The notes below the pieces were generated by a model that worked only from the letters and a program-made list of their open reading frames with translations, made no database searches and was not told where the DNA came from. A stretch of 41,577 bases of DNA from Candidatus Zixiibacteriota bacterium (GTDB lineage Bacteria > Zixibacteria > MSB-5A5 > GN15 > FEB-12): NCBI GenBank assembly GCA_029858555.1, contig JAOUEU010000003.1, forward strand, positions 1 to 41,577. Reading direction: 5' to 3'. How positions within the stretch are numbered: position 1 is the stretch's first letter; each line of letters opens with the position of its first letter. This document shows, one piece after another, positions 1,287-9,903 of this stretch. The translations under genes and the position numbers were made by a program.

Positions 1287-3935
1287 TTACGGTATCACCG
1301 CCAGCTTGCCCCAGCGGACCTCGCCCGTGGAATATTCTACTTTAAAATGATACATGCCCACCGCCACTTTTTCCGCCTGGCCGTTGTAGCCGTCCCAGGT
1401 GGGCCGGAACGAACCGACGGTGGGGTAAATCCCCTTCGGATACAACCTATTGTCTACGATGCGCCTGACCAGGTTCATGGCAAAGTCGTATATCTCGATA
1501 GTGATATTTGCGTCCTGCTCGACCGTGAAGTGGAAATCGATGCCGGCGTGCCGGGAAAAACTGAAGGGCGCCGGAAACGCATAAACAACATCCGCCGCGC
1601 TGGCCGAATCGATAAAATAAAACGTCTCGGCGTCCCCAAGACCGACAACGTTCATGCGGACAGTGCGGTCGCCGGTGCCGATCCAAAGATGATTGCCTAT
1701 GACCTCGGCCGCATACACCGGCGTCCCCGGCTCCACCAGCGTGATACCGTCGTTGTTGACCAGGGAGACGGTGTCCCACTCCGAACCGAGCTGTGCATGG
1801 TTTATCAAAAGCCCGGCATCGGTCGCGGCAAAAATCGTATCACCGTTAAAGGCGAAGTTCCAGGCAAAACCGCCGTGGTAGGCGGTCGCCCAACTGCGAA
1901 CATAGCCGACCGTGTCAGAGGTCTCCGTGTCAACCAGCGGCACCACCACTCCGACCGAGATACCCGGCGCGCCATACGTTAAGTCGTTGGGATTATTTGA
2001 ACTCCAGATGCGGGCATAGTCACCGTCAATATACTGTACTCCCAGCGCCGGAATGAAATCACCCGTAATGGCACTGCCGGTATTCGTCTTGGTATAACTT
2101 ATCACGGCGTCGGCGCCAAGTGTATCCCGGTTGATCCGGTTAATGTCGTAGCTCACACCCCGGTCCGTGGAAACGGCAAAACCCTTGGTGGAACCGACCA
2201 CGACAGTGTCACCGAGCACTTCAAATACGGTTATGGTATCGTTGGTCATGGCAGTCGCCGATGTTCCGCCCGGGTCCTTTATTTCGTGAATGAAGGTCTG
2301 GTTGCGGATTCCGTTTTCACCGTCGCGGCTGAATCTCACTCCAGCCGACGTCGCTACAAACACGGAATCGCTGAAGAAGTTGATGTCGTAGGATACCACC
2401 CCTATCTGCGATCTGTTATCGGAAAACTGCCGGTCGTCGTCGCCAATCGAGCGCATCACGCAGTACTCTCCCTGATCCGTCAGCGGCCAGTTGATGGTCC
2501 ATACGCACAGCGAGTCGAACGTGGTGTCGGCCGAGTTCAAAAACTCCTCCACTTTTACGCGCATCACCTTCGTGGAACTGGAGTCATCCTCGGGGAATAC
2601 GTAATTCCAGGACGAATCAATGGCGCCGGCCGGGTCCAGATAGAGCGTCACCAGGCCCGAATCGGTACCCAGGCGAAGGGTATCAGCCCGGGTATGTACG
2701 GCGTGGACGACATTGCGGCGATTGGCCGCGGTCGTGTCTGCATCGAATAACAGCCGGCCCCACGTCTGACCGGTGTCCGCCGACACCCATAACCCGGCCT
2801 CCTCGGCGGCCATATAGAGCCGCTCCCCGATGCTCGCAAAATCCGATATCGTGCGATCGGGGCCAATAACCTCCGTAAATAGGTCCTGAGCCTGGTAGCT
2901 CTCTCCCAGGTCGGTCGAGACGGCCAGACCTGCCGAGACTCCGCGGCTCTGATTCGCCCCGGCAAAAGCAACGCCCCTGAACACATGCACCGCCGATATA
3001 AACGGACCCGGCAGACCGTCGTTGGGACCGTTGGGATCGCCGTCTGCGAAACGCGACATGTACGGCCCACCTGTCTTAAAACCCCGCGTCACGCCCAGAT
3101 CACCAGCATAGAAGACGTAGTTATCCTCGTCGCCGGTCACATCATCGTTGAACGCCACCCGGCTGACATACTGATTGGCGTAGGCTTTTTGACGGGGAAT
3201 GGCATACACGTACTGAAAAACCCCCGCCGCTGTGCCCACCCAGACGTACAGCGAGTCCCCATGGGACGTATCCGCAGCGCACGAGAAGTACCGGTTGCTG
3301 TAAGCCGGATAAGACGGGTTGGCATAGAAATCATTCTCCAGACTCTTGCTGGCAAAAATCCGGCGCCAGTTCTGTCCCCCGTCACGCGATGCCATAAACC
3401 CGGATGCAAAGGCACTGAAGAAAAGCCAGTCGTCGTGGGCGTATACATCATCGGGGTCATAGTACCCCGCGATATCATATACCGTCCGATTAACTCCCCA
3501 CAACCCGACGCTGTCGGGATCGGTGAACCCCAGACTGGGAAAATCGACCTGCGTCCAGGTCTGGCCGTTATCGTCGGAGAGGGATACGCCGTCGGACCAG
3601 GTCTGCAAATCCCCTCCGATCGACACGTCGTGATTGGTTCCCGTCCAGATACGTCCCTTGATCGAAAATAGAGCCGAGATGTTCTCACTGACCAGGCCAT
3701 TCGACGAATTGTACAAAAGCCACGTCCGCCCGGAATCGTAGCTGAAATTCAGCCCTTCTCCCGTCGCGCACCACACCGCACCGTTATGCTCGATGATATC
3801 CACCACCGTGTTACTGGCAAAGGCCGAATCAGGGGCATCGTAGGACGAGGCCAGTTCCCCCCGCGACGGCGATGTCAGGGCCGCAAGCAATCCGGGTAAT
3901 AGCACTGCAAATTTGAACAAAGTTCTGTATGTCAC
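1287..3935 (-). CDS. secreted Asp-box (BNR-like) beta-propeller protein with C-terminal FlgD-like domain
   Basis: This 882-residue protein has a signal peptide of about 26 residues (ends PSRGE). Much of its length is built of Asp-box type repeats, for example SYDSGRTW, SDDNGQTW, SRDGGQNW, STDLGESY, SADTGQTW and STDRGVSY. These usually form a beta-propeller (sialidase/BNR or photosystem-stability-like fold). The last 90 residues or so form a FlgD Ig-like domain: ITIEIYDFAMNLVRRI, then a PTWDG turn, then VAVGMYHFKVEYSTG and WGKLAVIP. That arrangement is typical of type IX-like sorting or cell-surface domains. The start is a GTG at 3933-3935 with TGGAGT just upstream. No catalytic residues can be assigned, so enzymatic function is unknown. 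It is followed closely by two PorV/PorQ genes, probably one operon. Confidence 0.75.
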   Translation of the reverse strand: MTYRTLFKFAVLLPGLLAALTSPSRGELASSYDAPDSAFASNTVVDIIEHNGAVWCATGEGLNFSYDSGRTWLLYNSSNGLVSENISALFSIKGRIWTGTNHDVSIGGDLQTWSDGVSLSDDNGQTWTQVDFPSLGFTDPDSVGLWGVNRTVYDIAGYYDPDDVYAHDDWLFFSAFASGFMASRDGGQNWRRIFASKSLENDFYANPSYPAYSNRYFSCAADTSHGDSLYVWVGTAAGVFQYVYAIPRQKAYANQYVSRVAFNDDVTGDEDNYVFYAGDLGVTRGFKTGGPYMSRFADGDPNGPNDGLPGPFISAVHVFRGVAFAGANQSRGVSAGLAVSTDLGESYQAQDLFTEVIGPDRTISDFASIGERLYMAAEEAGLWVSADTGQTWGRLLFDADTTAANRRNVVHAVHTRADTLRLGTDSGLVTLYLDPAGAIDSSWNYVFPEDDSSSTKVMRVKVEEFLNSADTTFDSLCVWTINWPLTDQGEYCVMRSIGDDDRQFSDNRSQIGVVSYDINFFSDSVFVATSAGVRFSRDGENGIRNQTFIHEIKDPGGTSATAMTNDTITVFEVLGDTVVVGSTKGFAVSTDRGVSYDINRINRDTLGADAVISYTKTNTGSAITGDFIPALGVQYIDGDYARIWSSNNPNDLTYGAPGISVGVVVPLVDTETSDTVGYVRSWATAYHGGFAWNFAFNGDTIFAATDAGLLINHAQLGSEWDTVSLVNNDGITLVEPGTPVYAAEVIGNHLWIGTGDRTVRMNVVGLGDAETFYFIDSASAADVVYAFPAPFSFSRHAGIDFHFTVEQDANITIEIYDFAMNLVRRIVDNRLYPKGIYPTVGSFRPTWDGYNGQAEKVAVGMYHFKVEYSTGEVRWGKLAVIP

Positions 3936-4173: not shown

Positions 4174-5685
4174 TCAAGCAAGTACGTTCTTCTCGAAAGT
4201 AATGTTTCCCAGCACCGAATCCACAAAGAAGTAGCTCTCGGGGTGGAACGGTGCGTAGAAGAGATCCGCCTGCACCGGGATAACGCTCTCTCGTGCCGGC
4301 ATTCCTGAAATGCCCTCGGCCACCATGGCCACCTGCCTGCGATAGATCACAATCTCGGCCAGCGCAAAGGCTTCGCTCATACTCACGCTCACCGGCGTGA
4401 AATTGCGATCGAAGGCTTCCACCGGCGTCAATTCGAGTTGGGGATAGGCTGCCGAAATTCGCCGGGCCAACCGGTACAGGGCTTCGAAATTCCGGGTCCG
4501 AAAGGCCGGAACAACTATCCGCTCCGAGCGGTGTATCCCGCCCAACATCCGCTGCAGCTTGGCTGCAACCGGGTTGGGCATTTTCAAGGCCCAGAAAGGA
4601 AACATGCTGTCCGGGTTCTTCCCCCGGGCCGCTATCCTGTAAATTTGGTTCACGGGCAGGGGTGTCCGCTCTACGGTCTTTATCTCCTGGCAGTTTTTGC
4701 ATACGTACAGGTACGACTTCTCGTCCGGCAGATCGACGCCGCAGGTGGTGCAGCGATGAAACTCGATATCAAGCCTGCCAAACTCCACGCGGGGGCCGCC
4801 GGCCTCCTCCTCCGGCTCTTCGGTCATCTCGACCGACATGACGCTGGCTGCATTCTCGAACACCATCGACGGTGTCAGAAGCTCATCGGCGCTATCAACG
4901 TGATCGCCGTCGGAACCCGCCACGCTGCCTTCGGCGGCCTGCAACTGAAGGATCCGCGCGGAAGCGCCGTCGACCACAAAACGCCGGTAACCCTCACGAT
5001 ATGACTCCACTATGTAAAATGGAAAGAAGACCAGCGAAAAAACCGGATTGAACATCTCAGTGAGGTTGTCTCCGAACGCGGCCTGCTCTATTTCGTCTAC
5101 TGTCGCCAGGGATCGGCCGAGGTTGCTCCTGACTTTGTCCCAGGACCTGACCACGGGGAGCGAGTCAAAACCGGAGGCAACGTGTTCTTCCGAAAACGGC
5201 ACCAGCTTGACTACATCCCCGCGCACGCCCAGGGAATCGGGCACACCGTCCAGGGCCGGTCCGGCCCGTAGAGTCAGCGAATACGGAACGACGGCTATAT
5301 CGGTTTTCTCCGTCTCGGTGGTGACTTCCGACTGATATTCGGTCTCGGCCAGGATAACCCGTCGGTGGACACGATTACGCACCTTCAGCAAGAGTGAATC
5401 AATTTTCCAGAATGGGTAGTAGACTGCCTTGATCTGAAGGTCGGCATCCGTCAGCGGCAGGGATCGTTTTTTCAGATACCGGTCCAGATTGAAACGGATT
5501 TCGCGCTTGGCCAGCGTCTTGGGGGCGAGATACGCAGTCGGGCAGTCGGGCATGACCAGGCGCAGAACCGAACCGCAGTGCGAACAGGTCGTTACGAAGA
5601 AGTTCTCCTCGACTTCCAGTTCTCCACCGCAGCCGGGACAGCCTACCTCGATGTAAAAGCCGGGTTTCCTTTTCTTACTGTGCAT
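4174..5685 (-). CDS. cytosolic zinc-ribbon protein of unknown function, partner of the SPFH gene
   Basis: I do not recognise a named family for this 503-residue protein. It has no signal peptide or clear membrane segment. A zinc ribbon sits at the N-terminus (C16-P-G-C19 and C34-S-H-C37). A second follows around residues 313-335 (CTTC ... CKNC). Between them is a mixed alpha/beta region containing [18 protein letters not shown] and an acidic stretch rich in Glu. The start ATG at 5683-5685 has AGAGGGAG directly upstream and overlaps the end of the SPFH gene by 11 bp, so translation is probably coupled. Zinc ribbons in both partners suggest they act together, perhaps as a membrane-associated scaffold, but this is inference. 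Confidence 0.6.
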
Positions 5686-6799
5686 CTCCCTCTATTCTCT
5701 TGCCGCAGGATCCGCAGAATTTGGAGCCTGGAATAATCTCTTCCGAACAGTGCGGGCAAACCGGTTTTGCATCGAGCTTGTACCCGCAGTGCAGGCAGAA
5801 GGCGGCCTCGGTGGGCAGTTCCTTGTGGCACGACGGGCAGGTGTTCTGAGTTACCATCTGGTGGCCGCATCGGTAACAAAACCGCGACTGTTCGGGAGTA
5901 TCGGTATGACATTTCGGACAGGTGACGGTGCTGACCGATTCACGCTTCAATTCCGTCTGCTCAGGCGAGAAAACGCGAGAAAGCATCCCCGGGGCCAGAA
6001 GACCGACACCGGCGGCAACGCCGGCGCCGGAAGTAGCCGCGGTACCGGCGCTGGTCGACCCCATGCCCTGGGCCATCTCAAACTTCAAAAACTTGTCCAG
6101 GTCGCCCACGGCCTCCATACCGGAGCGCTTGTCGATGAGTCTGGCGACATCCTCGGGAGGCGTGACCGAAGAAATATAAAAATCCACCAGTTCGAGTCCG
6201 TACTTGTCGAACTCCACCTTGACGGTCTGCTTGAACTCCTCAGCCAACTCCGTGTAGATGGCCGGCAACTCCAGAATTGTATCGAGCTTTTCACCCAGCA
6301 TGTCGTTCATACGGGCCACAATGACATCGCGCAGATAGTCCTGAATATCCTGCGTGGTGTAACGCGCCTGGCGGCCGACAATCGAGTTGAGAAACAGCGC
6401 CGGGTTTGCGATGCGCATCGTGAAAGCACCGTGCCCTCGAAGCCGAATCAGCCCCAGCCTGCTGTCCTGGAACGTGACGGGGTATTTGGTCCCCCACTTG
6501 AGATCCGTGAAGACCTTGAGGTTGACAAAGTAGACTTCGGCCCGGAAAGGTGATTTGAACCCATAAGGGAAGGCCAGAAGTCTGGTCAGGATAGGTATGT
6601 TCAAAGTCGAAATGGTGTGGCGCCCGGTCGTAAAAGAGTCACAGGCATGACCGTCCTTGAAGAACATGGCCGTCTGGCTGTCCCGGACGATGAGTTGAGC
6701 ACCCCACTTGAAATCGGCCGATCCCTCCTGCGGGATCCGATGAATCATCTCTTCCCCGGCGGGGTCGAGCCACTCGATTACCTCAATTAATAGTGACAT
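5675..6799 (-). CDS. SPFH/band 7 domain protein with three C-terminal zinc ribbons (YdjI-like)
   Basis: This is a 374-residue protein. Residues of about 20-220 match the SPFH/band 7 type found in YdjI and so-called virion core-like proteins: [20 protein letters not shown] at the start, then [13 protein letters not shown] and [15 protein letters not shown] Gly/Ala-rich linker ([16 protein letters not shown]) follows. The tail holds three zinc ribbons in a row: CPKC/CYRC, CPSC/CLHC and CPHC/CGSC. Family members lack a signal peptide and are thought to associate with membranes or stress-linked scaffolds; nothing in this sequence assigns an enzyme activity. The ATG at 6797-6799 has ACGGAG about 8 bases upstream. 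It is the first gene of a two-gene unit with the zinc-ribbon protein downstream. Confidence 0.8.
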
Positions 6800-7017: not shown

Positions 7018-8862
7018 ATGATATACCGTAAAGCCGTTCCACTTTTCTTTGTCGGCATGCTGGCGCTTCTGCTGACTTTTCCCGGCTGTGATGACCTTAT
7101 CACAGAAACCAATAATATCACGGTTTACGATACTACTTTGGGTCTGGCCTGTTTCGACTGCCATAGTGATGAAGATAACCGGCTGATACGGCCGAAAGCC
7201 CAGTGGGCGAATTCCGCCCATGCCTCCGATTCGCTTCTCGACATCCTTCACGACCTGAACGGCAGCAATTATACCGTCAACGACTGCGGCCCGGAGTGTC
7301 ACAGCCATGAAGGGTTTATCCGCGAGTTTGACAGTCTGCCTCTGGGGGCGATCCAGCATTACAATGTCATCGGCTGCTTCACTTGCCATATGCCGCATAC
7401 CGGCAATTATGGTACCTGGAGTGACTCCACTCTGCGTGCTCTCGGCGAGTTTGTCTATCTGGCGAACGACTCCACCTTCGTCATGGGCAAATCGAACATG
7501 TGCGTTCACTGCCATCAGGCTGTAAACCCGGCGCCGGCCGCCGGTATTACCAGTGATGTCCTTCTAACAGCTACTTTCGGCCCTCATTATAGCGGCCAGG
7601 CGGACGTGCTGTCCGGCAAGGGCGGCTTTCGCTTCGCCGACAGCGTCGTGGCGTCCTCGCACCGGTCGGTGGCGGATTTGAACGGTTGCTTGCGCTGTCA
7701 CTATCTCAATGGACAGGGTTACTCCTTCGGCGAGCATACTTTCCGACTGGAGCACATTGACGGTGTCGACACTACGCAATATCTGGCTGCCTGCCTCGGC
7801 TCGGGCTGTCATGCATTGCTGGAAAACTTCCATGACGTGATCGGATCCGGATTGGGCTATTATCGTCTCGACTCGATAGTCTCCCTGGCCGACAGTCTGG
7901 AAACACTGCTGAAGGACCGGGCCTTCCTCGACCCCGCGGACCCTGCCGGAATGCGCCTTATGGCCGATTCGGTCATCCCGGCGGATGCGGCTCGTATTCT
8001 GTACAACTACCTGCTATACAAGGGCGACGGCTCCCGTGGGATTCACAATCCCAGATTCGTCCAAGCCCTTCTTACCGAGTCGGTAGTCCGGTTTGATTCC
8101 CTGCCGCCGGCCGCCGCCTTCAGCGCGTCCGTGACCTCCGGTTGCGCGCCCCTGACGGTCGATTTCACGGACGAATCGAAGGGTAATGTCGCCACCTGGA
8201 ACTGGACCTTCGGCGACCTGACCGGCACCTCGGATCAACCTAACCCCACTTACACATATGACACGGGCGGTATCTATACTTGCAGCCTCATCGTAGCCGG
8301 CCCGTCCGGGGCCGCTGATTCGCTGGTCAGGGCAAGTTACATCCAGGTCTACTCAACAATAGCGCTTTTCACCGCCAGCCCGCTTTCCGGCTGCTCCACC
8401 CTGGTGGTGGACTTCCAGGATCTCTCGCCCAGTGACAGTATACTGACCTGGGAGTGGGATTTCGGTGACGGCGTCACGTCGATGGAACAGAGCCCGCAGC
8501 ACAACTACGACAGCACCGGCATTTTTGATGTCCGGCTTATCGTTTCGGACTCCTGCGGCTGGGACACCCTGACCTATCCGGGCTACATCACCATCGCTGA
8601 TGCCGTCCCCGTGGCCGGGTTCTTCGCTTCCGATACCCTCGGCGCACCCGGCCTGACGGTTTTCTTTACCGATACCTCGAGCGGCCTGATCACATCATGG
8701 CAGTGGGATTTTGGTGACCCCAATTCGGACGACAACAGCTCCACCGAACAGAATCCCCAGCATACTTACGACGAGGTGGGCACCTATACCGTGGTGTTGA
8801 CTGTCAAAAACGAATGCGGCCAGGGCGTGAGGTTCGAGACGGATCTCATCAAAATTGAATGA
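7018..8862 (+). CDS. multiheme c-type cytochrome lipoprotein with three PKD domains
   Basis: This 614-residue protein starts with a lipoprotein signal (lipobox-like TFPGC, Cys24). The N-terminal half carries heme-attachment motifs. CFDCH (45-49), CFTCH (120-124), CVHCH (162-166) and CLRCH (224-228) are standard. CGPECH (90-95, CX3CH) and CLGSGCH (259-265, CX4CH) are non-standard. From about residue 362 come three PKD domains with the WNWTFGD, WEWDFGD and WQWDFGD hallmarks and NPxHTYDxxGxYTV-type ends. PKD domains usually act as surface spacers or binding modules. A surface electron-transfer role is likely but the redox partner is unknown. No cytochrome maturation genes are nearby. It stands alone, with its own promoter and terminator. 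Confidence 0.85.
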   Translation: MIYRKAVPLFFVGMLALLLTFPGCDDLITETNNITVYDTTLGLACFDCHSDEDNRLIRPKAQWANSAHASDSLLDILHDLNGSNYTVNDCGPECHSHEGFIREFDSLPLGAIQHYNVIGCFTCHMPHTGNYGTWSDSTLRALGEFVYLANDSTFVMGKSNMCVHCHQAVNPAPAAGITSDVLLTATFGPHYSGQADVLSGKGGFRFADSVVASSHRSVADLNGCLRCHYLNGQGYSFGEHTFRLEHIDGVDTTQYLAACLGSGCHALLENFHDVIGSGLGYYRLDSIVSLADSLETLLKDRAFLDPADPAGMRLMADSVIPADAARILYNYLLYKGDGSRGIHNPRFVQALLTESVVRFDSLPPAAAFSASVTSGCAPLTVDFTDESKGNVATWNWTFGDLTGTSDQPNPTYTYDTGGIYTCSLIVAGPSGAADSLVRASYIQVYSTIALFTASPLSGCSTLVVDFQDLSPSDSILTWEWDFGDGVTSMEQSPQHNYDSTGIFDVRLIVSDSCGWDTLTYPGYITIADAVPVAGFFASDTLGAPGLTVFFTDTSSGLITSWQWDFGDPNSDDNSSTEQNPQHTYDEVGTYTVVLTVKNECGQGVRFETDLIKIE

Positions 8863-8940: not shown

Positions 8941-9903
8941 TTACGTCGCAAGTTCCTGTTTGAACTTCCTGGTCAAGGCCGGAACGATTTCAAAAGCGTC
9001 GCCGACAATGCCGTAATTGGCGATATTGAATATCGGCGCATCTTTGTCTTTGTTCACCGCCACAATCGTTCCCGAGGTTCGCATACCCACCAGATGCTGA
9101 ATCGCCCCGGAAATACCCACGGCTACATACAGCTTGGGGTTCACGGTCTTCCCGGTCTGCCCCACCTGGTGCGAGTAAGGAATCCAGCCAGCGTCGACGA
9201 TAGCTCGCGACGCGCCGAAGGCCGCCCCCAGAACGTCAGCCAATTCCCGCACTATGGGCAGGTGCTCCGGCCCCTTCATTCCGCGCCCGGCTGACACAAT
9301 GATGTCGGCCTCGGTCAGACTGACCGCGCCCGTCGCCTCGATCTTTAACTCCTTTACGACCATTTTTGATTGCAGCAGAGACGCGTCGACCGTTTCAACT
9401 ACAACCCGTCCGTCGCCGTCTTTCGACTCGGGATATATCTTGGGTCGCACCGTCACCAGAAACGGCTTGTCGCTGTTCCTGACCACGTTCGAGATTACCG
9501 AGCCGCCGTAGTGCGACCTGGCGACTACTACATCGTCGCCGTTGCGACTGACATTACTCACGTCCGAAGCCATGGGCGCGCCGTTCCTGGCCGCCAGGCG
9601 ACTGACGAGTGACTTGCCATAGAAGGTCGCTGGTCCGAGCACGAGATCCGGAGTGTGCTTCGATATCAGCGACGACAGAACGTTCACATAGATTTCATCG
9701 TTGAAGTATTTCAACTCGTGACTGGATACCGCCAGAACCTGTCCGCCGCCGCGCTGGGCCAGTTCACCGGCCAACGCCTCGGCGTTTTCGGCCAGTACGA
9801 CCGTAGTCACCTCTCCCCCCAGAGATTTGGCGACTTCAATCAACTCAAATGACGCCGGGACCAGCTTTCCGTCTTTTTGCAGGGCGATGATAAGCGTCTT
9901 CAT
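8941..9903 (-). CDS. etfA: electron transfer flavoprotein, alpha subunit
   Basis: This 320-residue protein has the usual length of EtfA. The N-terminal alpha/beta domain has the LGPATFYGKSLVSRLAAR pattern. The C-terminal FAD domain holds the family signature: VSAGRGMKGPEHL, then SHQVGQTGKTVNPKLYVAVG, then ISGAIQHLVGM and the IVAVNKDKDAPIFNIANYG end. EtfA with EtfB shuttles electrons from acyl-CoA or other dehydrogenases to the quinone pool through a membrane oxidoreductase. The partner etfB is normally adjacent, but the next gene upstream is a dus gene and no etfB is in the window. The gene has its own promoter, so it appears to be expressed as a single-gene unit. The start is the ATG at 9901-9903. 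Confidence 0.93.
   Translation of the reverse strand: MKTLIIALQKDGKLVPASFELIEVAKSLGGEVTTVVLAENAEALAGELAQRGGGQVLAVSSHELKYFNDEIYVNVLSSLISKHTPDLVLGPATFYGKSLVSRLAARNGAPMASDVSNVSRNGDDVVVARSHYGGSVISNVVRNSDKPFLVTVRPKIYPESKDGDGRVVVETVDASLLQSKMVVKELKIEATGAVSLTEADIIVSAGRGMKGPEHLPIVRELADVLGAAFGASRAIVDAGWIPYSHQVGQTGKTVNPKLYVAVGISGAIQHLVGMRTSGTIVAVNKDKDAPIFNIANYGIVGDAFEIVPALTRKFKQELAT

Follow-up and report, generated by a model that had tools for sequence, protein, structure and literature searches.

An SPFH protein and the zinc-ribbon protein encoded directly after it (hereafter the partner) form a conserved two-gene unit in the phylum of Candidatus Zixiibacteriota bacterium. Profile comparisons indicate that the N-terminal half of the partner is homologous to YdjG-type proteins, which are known neighbours of YdjI-type SPFH proteins, and we lean towards a model in which the pair acts as a scaffold and a dedicated adaptor at the inner-membrane surface, without PspA.

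An SPFH gene and a zinc-ribbon partner gene overlap on the minus strand

The window analysed here is a stretch of 41,577 nucleotides (GenBank assembly GCA_029858555.1, contig JAOUEU010000003.1), and all coordinates without a locus prefix refer to it. The SPFH gene (5675-6799, minus strand; 374 aa) comes first, and its reading frame overlaps that of the partner gene (4174-5685, minus strand; 503 aa) by 11 bp (5675-5685, minus strand, by ORF coordinates). The overlap, the three zinc ribbons of the SPFH protein and the two of the partner had all been read in a preliminary description, and all were recovered. A chance pair of open reading frames was ruled out because both proteins are conserved across the phylum.

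The SPFH protein has a Band_7_1 domain (PF13421) at residues 19-228 (6116-6745, minus strand; E 3e-65, 220 bits vs a cut-off of 24), followed by three C4 zinc ribbons at residues 294-366 (5702-5920, minus strand). All 12 cysteines of these ribbons (C294 to C365) are unchanged in 18/18 aligned proteins (chosen from 61). With its PF13421 domain, C-terminal ribbons and no clear membrane helix, it belongs with the Band_7_1 or YdjI-type SPFH proteins. Its hydropathy peaks at 1.44 (19-residue window), in a stretch rich in Gly and Ala at residue 259; among 61 relatives, three reach 1.6 and none reaches 2.0. This hydrophobic stretch, at about residues 259-277, could contact the membrane. Searches of the PDB with the SPFH sequence and with the SPFH profile returned no match.

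Upstream of the SPFH gene lies a divergent gene (7018-8862, plus strand) with three PKD domains, four CxxCH motifs, one CxxxCH and one CxxxxCH, whose product is likely a multihaem surface cytochrome. The next gene downstream of the partner (1287-3935, minus strand) begins about 240 bp away; its product has a C-terminal FlgD_ig domain just at the Pfam cut-off and weaker BNR-type matches, and is probably secreted or at the surface. Since the upstream gene is divergent and about 240 bp separate the partner from the downstream gene, the unit looks like two genes, SPFH and partner. Promoter and terminator scans gave results at chance level. Further upstream, 8941-9903 (minus strand) encodes an electron transfer flavoprotein alpha subunit, and members of its gene cluster lie near the pair in 20/61 loci. 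A family that by eye is Ppx/GppA-like (representative L109:5412-6347) lies directly 3′ of the partner in 11/61 loci.

The two genes are conserved as a unit across the phylum

Among 132 genomes of the phylum, the partner was found in 93 and an SPFH match in 97. Three of the latter were dropped before the co-occurrence test because their matches are not this gene: G008 and G009 have ribbon-only matches and G100 has a weak match on an unusual contig. With absence determined by elimination from the matches listed, both genes occur in 91 genomes, the partner only in two, SPFH only in three and neither in 36, so presence and absence agree in 127/132 (Fisher p 2e-26, uncorrected for phylogeny). In four of the five singletons (G051, G085, G040 and G108) a contig ends where the missing gene should lie, and in the fifth (G005) the SPFH frame is truncated to 113 residues. 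Both genes are missing in genomes at least 96% complete, including G038, G055, G032, G033, G069, G073, G074 and G010, and within one genus G038 lacks the pair while G037 has both; these absences suggest repeated joint loss of the pair.

An SPFH match was present in 96 other genomes, and 60 of these contributed one SPFH-centred locus each, which with the window make 61 loci read. The partner is the next gene downstream of SPFH in 61/61. The reading frames overlap in 46, although these values use longest-ORF starts and some are probably exaggerated (to -161); 13 loci have gaps of 2-84 bp and two have larger values (766 and 985). The two larger values come from G124 and G067, where the partner frame has an internal stop and its first piece adjoins SPFH. 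Each of these frames (L106 in G124, L100 in G067) is broken by one stop codon, through either an assembly error or a broken gene. The SPFH protein is the better conserved of the two, with 55-83% identity among near-full matches compared with 17-48% for the partner. The earlier view of the two genes as a real unit is therefore borne out by their co-occurrence, adjacency and overlaps. The refutation that it named, a partner found widely without the SPFH gene, came true in part: outside the phylum, partner-type modules also occur away from SPFH, though in genomes that have an SPFH gene.

The partner has two ribbon-and-domain modules and no clear membrane helix

The partner has one zinc ribbon before each of two domains. 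Ribbon 1 (C16, C19, C34, C37; 5575-5640, minus strand) precedes the N module domain (residues 45-250; 4936-5553, minus strand), and ribbon 2 (H310, C312, C315, C329, C332; 4690-4758, minus strand) precedes the C module domain (residues 338-503; 4177-4674, minus strand). Both ribbons follow the pattern CxxC...CxxC and are kept, with all eight cysteines, in 53/53 relatives longer than 440 aa, the window protein included. An acidic linker (residues 251-300; 4786-4935, minus strand), with 13 acidic residues and one basic among 50, separates the modules. It lies where YdjG-type and B-type proteins (described below) have membrane helices, and no hydrophobic helix was found in this zone in the 53 relatives (hydropathy maximum 1.15). 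Over its whole length the window partner reaches a maximum of 1.45; 1.6 is reached by 8/53 relatives, five of them at the same place in the C module (residues 429-434), and 2.0 by none of the 53, all by hydropathy scan only.

Database searches with the partner gave no match over a cut-off in Pfam or NCBIfam; the best Pfam E-value among 52 family members was 1.8e-5, mostly to ribbon families, and ribbons alone match many families. A PADLOC search and a search of plasmids with the partner also returned no match. Against the PDB, the single partner sequence matched designed 'Pizza' propellers at E 6e-6 over a stretch of about 32 residues, which we took as chance because the profile of 52 relatives did not reproduce these matches. 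With the profile, ribbon 1 resembled RNA polymerase subunit P and LysW and ribbon 2 resembled the ribosomal L37Ae type, both weakly (best E 0.003). Structure prediction of the partner was too poor for a fold search (pLDDT 30.4 alone, 35.4 with three relatives).

Homology of the N module to YdjG-type proteins

The gene after SPFH on plasmids of Paracoccus, Vibrio, Tsukamurella, Comamonas and Enterococcus encodes a protein of 352-428 residues that has two ribbon regions and one domain, plus a hydrophobic helix at the C-terminus; in the Tsukamurella protein one cysteine of the first ribbon is absent. Hydropathy exceeds 2.0 near the C-terminus in 6/6 of the YdjG-type proteins compared. In Enterococcus a TPM gene follows; of the YdjG-type proteins, this one has the most YdjG-like neighbours. 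An SPFH gene followed by a gene of this type was also found in G209, G240, G283, G211 (cut by a contig end) and G279. Among plasmid records, 23 had an SPFH match and 12 a YdjG-type match, all 12 among the 23; 11/23 had no YdjG-type match, and plasmid SPFH genes have other neighbours in Bacteroides, Nocardia, Novosphingobium and Butyrivibrio. We regard the plasmid proteins as probable YdjG-type proteins on the basis of their neighbours, their plan and the published description of YdjG as two zinc ribbons, a YpeB-related NTF2-like domain and a TM segment (PMC11237479); Bacillus subtilis YdjG enters the comparison via this description only.

The preliminary description could not place the partner in a family and supposed that it may be a new component. 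This did not survive profile comparison. In hhalign, the N half aligned with six YdjG-type proteins at E 6e-16 over 233 columns, and with the ribbon removed at 1e-8 over 198 columns (E-values of single comparisons). None of 100 column shuffles reached either score, and reversed profiles gave noise. The partner profile aligned with the Paracoccus protein over 232 columns and with the Enterococcus protein over the ribbon only (31 columns); the Paracoccus and Enterococcus proteins match each other in BLASTP at E 1e-39, which ties the latter in. Searches of Pfam and NCBIfam with the YdjG-type domain returned ribbon-type or chance models only. The C half matches the N half of the partner at E 5.5e-11 with the ribbon and 9.5e-5 without. 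It was rejected as a direct second YdjG-type domain, with a ribbon-less score of 22.6 against a best shuffle of 19.5-20.3 and no ribbon-less match.

The N half of the partner thus has the homologous domain after a zinc ribbon, and its likeness to B. subtilis YdjG, as a zinc-ribbon neighbour of SPFH with a homologous domain, is drawn through the YdjG-type proteins P0003 and P0004. Unlike YdjG, the partner has one ribbon per module instead of two before one domain, a second module, and no clear membrane-spanning segment by hydropathy scan. The Paracoccus, Vibrio, Comamonas and Tsukamurella pairs (L128, L132, L134 and L133) resemble the window pair in being adjacent in the same order, SPFH then partner, in the homology of the N module and in having no PspA annotated in the stretch; they differ in the shorter, single-domain, helix-bearing partner described above.

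The two modules match separate proteins of an unfused cassette

A search for PF13421 covered 288 genomes, 132 of the phylum and 156 outside it. Matches below E 1e-18 occurred in 23 outside genomes, and SPFH loci were read in 22 of these (G270 was left out). G188 and G238 each have a two-module partner directly after SPFH, of 408 and 438 aa respectively. Three genes come after SPFH in G246 (L194:7016-9556); we name their products A (252 aa), B (377 aa) and C (213 aa), names coined in this analysis. Each has a ribbon and a domain; A and B also have hydrophobic helices, and C has none. The same three-gene cassette lies away from SPFH in G234 (L220:4419-6930, minus strand) and G160 (L222:3991-6198, minus strand). 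Also away from SPFH, G165 and G260 have B and C (A only as a profile match) and G245 has A and B, with no C-type gene found; G266, G221 and G270 likewise have modules away from SPFH. Among the 23 outside genomes, no partner-profile match was found in G182, G249, G219, G158, G279, G240, G233 or G251, although G279 and G240 do have a YdjG-type gene.

The N half of the partner matched best to five B proteins, at E 1.6e-23 over 230 columns with the ribbon and 2.4e-12 over 195 columns without it. For the C half against five C proteins the corresponding values were 3.7e-17 over 189 columns and 9.2e-9 over 103 columns. The best of 40 shuffles scored far lower. Without ribbons, the crossed comparisons were weak: the N half against C-type proteins gave 11% probability over 15 columns, above the best shuffle, and the C half against B-type proteins gave 1%, under it. 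The ribbon-less N half was intermediate against A-type proteins (71%, 145 columns). In a tree of 44 SPFH proteins, G188, G238 and 12 phylum rows form one clade (96/82), which is nested in a larger clade of window type (23 rows; 99/89) and surrounded by unfused lineages; several rows elsewhere in the tree are on long branches, and G270 is not included. The simplest reading is that B and C fused once, with the helices lost, to give the window partner. The window differs from the cassette in that A, B and C are separate genes there and adjoin SPFH only in G246.

Rather than a structural adaptor, the partner could be a nucleic-acid-binding or regulatory zinc-ribbon protein that reports the state of SPFH or of the membrane to gene expression, as the weak resemblance of its ribbons to RNA polymerase subunit P, LysW and L37Ae-type proteins might indicate; the zinc ribbon of YdjG is likewise described as a type known to bind DNA (PMC9239133). 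However, each module has a further conserved domain with invariant positions outside the ribbons (P91, G153, P222, D239, P363, W365 and P393), and hydrophobic segments of membrane type occur both in A and B from outside the phylum and in the six YdjG-type proteins. We therefore regard a regulatory role as unlikely, though worth keeping in mind, and continue to prefer the scaffold adaptor.

PspA and TPM were not detected with the pair

No genome of the 132 in the phylum reached the PspA cut-off (PF04012), compared with 9 of 14 control genomes. Weak matches below the cut-off occurred in 6/132, and the window genome had no match. Likewise, the window genome had no TPM/YdjH match (PF04536). TPM is present in 34/132 phylum genomes, and wherever both places were listed it was either over 280 kb away from SPFH or on a different contig. 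Outside the phylum, PspA over the cut-off was found in 1 of 11 genomes with a window-type SPFH (G251) and 7 of 12 others, grouped by the SPFH tree, which does not contain G270. With neither PspA nor TPM/YdjH detected in the window genome, membership of the pair in the Psp system was rejected.

Alternatively, the pair could be an ordinary part of the Psp response and cooperate with a PspA-like protein from another locus. The B. subtilis proteins YdjI, YdjG, YdjH and PspA are encoded in one operon and depend on each other for localisation (PMC8581546), and the weak matches in six phylum genomes could be read in this way. Set against this are the contrast between phylum and control genomes and the missing PspA and TPM/YdjH matches in the window genome; a very divergent PspA would be missed by this search. 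We consider such a dependence improbable, and the PspA-independent scaffold remains our working model.

A helical gene of about 170 residues lies directly 5′ of SPFH in eight of the 11 window-type genomes outside the phylum (L194:5348-5845, L186:5107-5607, L187:4905-5420, L191:5457-5972, L192:5333-5851 and L196:5159-5653; L188:4140-4685 and L190:6678-7199, minus strand), unlike in the window, where no such gene was found. All eight products match the NCBIfam model NF047596, LIMLP_15305 (best E 8e-17); the first member scored 61.7 bits against a cut-off of 210. Five of them were searched against Pfam, with no family model over its cut-off, and PDB matches of the family were set aside as likely coiled-coil noise. 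LIMLP_15305 appears as a gene neighbour in a table on Leptospira and peroxide (PMC7567364). Within the phylum the helical gene occurs in 1/132 genomes, on the odd G100 contig; this locus (L147, G100:C117) has a different SPFH gene with the helical gene upstream and by eye is archaeal or misbinned. The helical family may be a stand-in for PspA. Tentatively, a distinct SPFH clade might run a PspA-independent system at the membrane surface, with a fuller form, complete in G246 (a LIMLP_15305-like helical protein, SPFH, membrane-anchored A and B, and soluble C), that was reduced in the window lineage to two genes by B-C fusion and loss of the anchors, A and the helical protein; the helical protein may act as PspA does elsewhere. 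We hold this wider scenario to be possible but doubtful.

A proposed PspA-independent scaffold and adaptor

The closest characterised counterpart is B. subtilis YdjI, which has a PF13421-type SPFH domain and a zinc-finger region at its C-terminus, lacks a predicted membrane anchor and is predicted to be soluble (PMC8581546). Deletion of ydjG or ydjH abolishes the membrane foci of YdjI and PspA, PspA needs YdjI, and two-hybrid contacts were reported for PspA-YdjI, YdjG-YdjH, YdjH-PspA and YdjH-YdjI (PMC8581546); a direct YdjG-YdjI contact is not among the two-hybrid results in the part of that report available. YdjI is described as linking PspA to YdjG or YdjH (PMC9239133), and the rings and domes that SPFH proteins build mostly abut a membrane (PMC12624060). 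The window pair differs from pspA-ydjGHI in having no PspA and no TPM/YdjH, in the SPFH gene coming first, and in the three ribbons of its SPFH protein.

We propose, with a confidence a little above even, that the window encodes a scaffold and its dedicated adaptor. The SPFH protein would build the scaffold as an oligomer on the inner surface of the inner membrane; its zinc-ribbon partner would bind it through the ribbon modules and bridge it to client proteins or to the membrane. On this view the pair would be a pared-down version of the YdjG-YdjI portion of the envelope-stress machinery that does without PspA, in which one soluble fused adaptor replaces the membrane-anchored subunits. Membrane association is inferred, because neither protein has a clear membrane helix, and a cytosolic role is possible. 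That the genes are merely co-transcribed neighbours is very improbable: although modules and SPFH lie at different loci in some other phyla, presence and absence agree in nearly all genomes, adjacency is complete, the one singleton that does not reach a contig end has a truncated SPFH, and SPFH beside a YdjG-type gene recurs in distant phyla.

In the available portions of the literature on SPFH proteins, zinc ribbons, Psp, YdjI and YdjG, we recognised no description of this pair, of the B-C fusion or of the A/B/C cassette. Rather than a new family, the partner looks like a fused, anchor-less variant of the known YdjG type, and the role of the YdjG-type domain rests on the B. subtilis deletion and two-hybrid work (PMC8581546). 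In a phylum where PspA was not detected, this fused and apparently soluble partner goes with SPFH throughout, which suggests that the SPFH-YdjG part can work without PspA. The pair offers a simple two-protein system for structural work and reconstitution, and the separate A/B/C cassette shows which parts may belong together.
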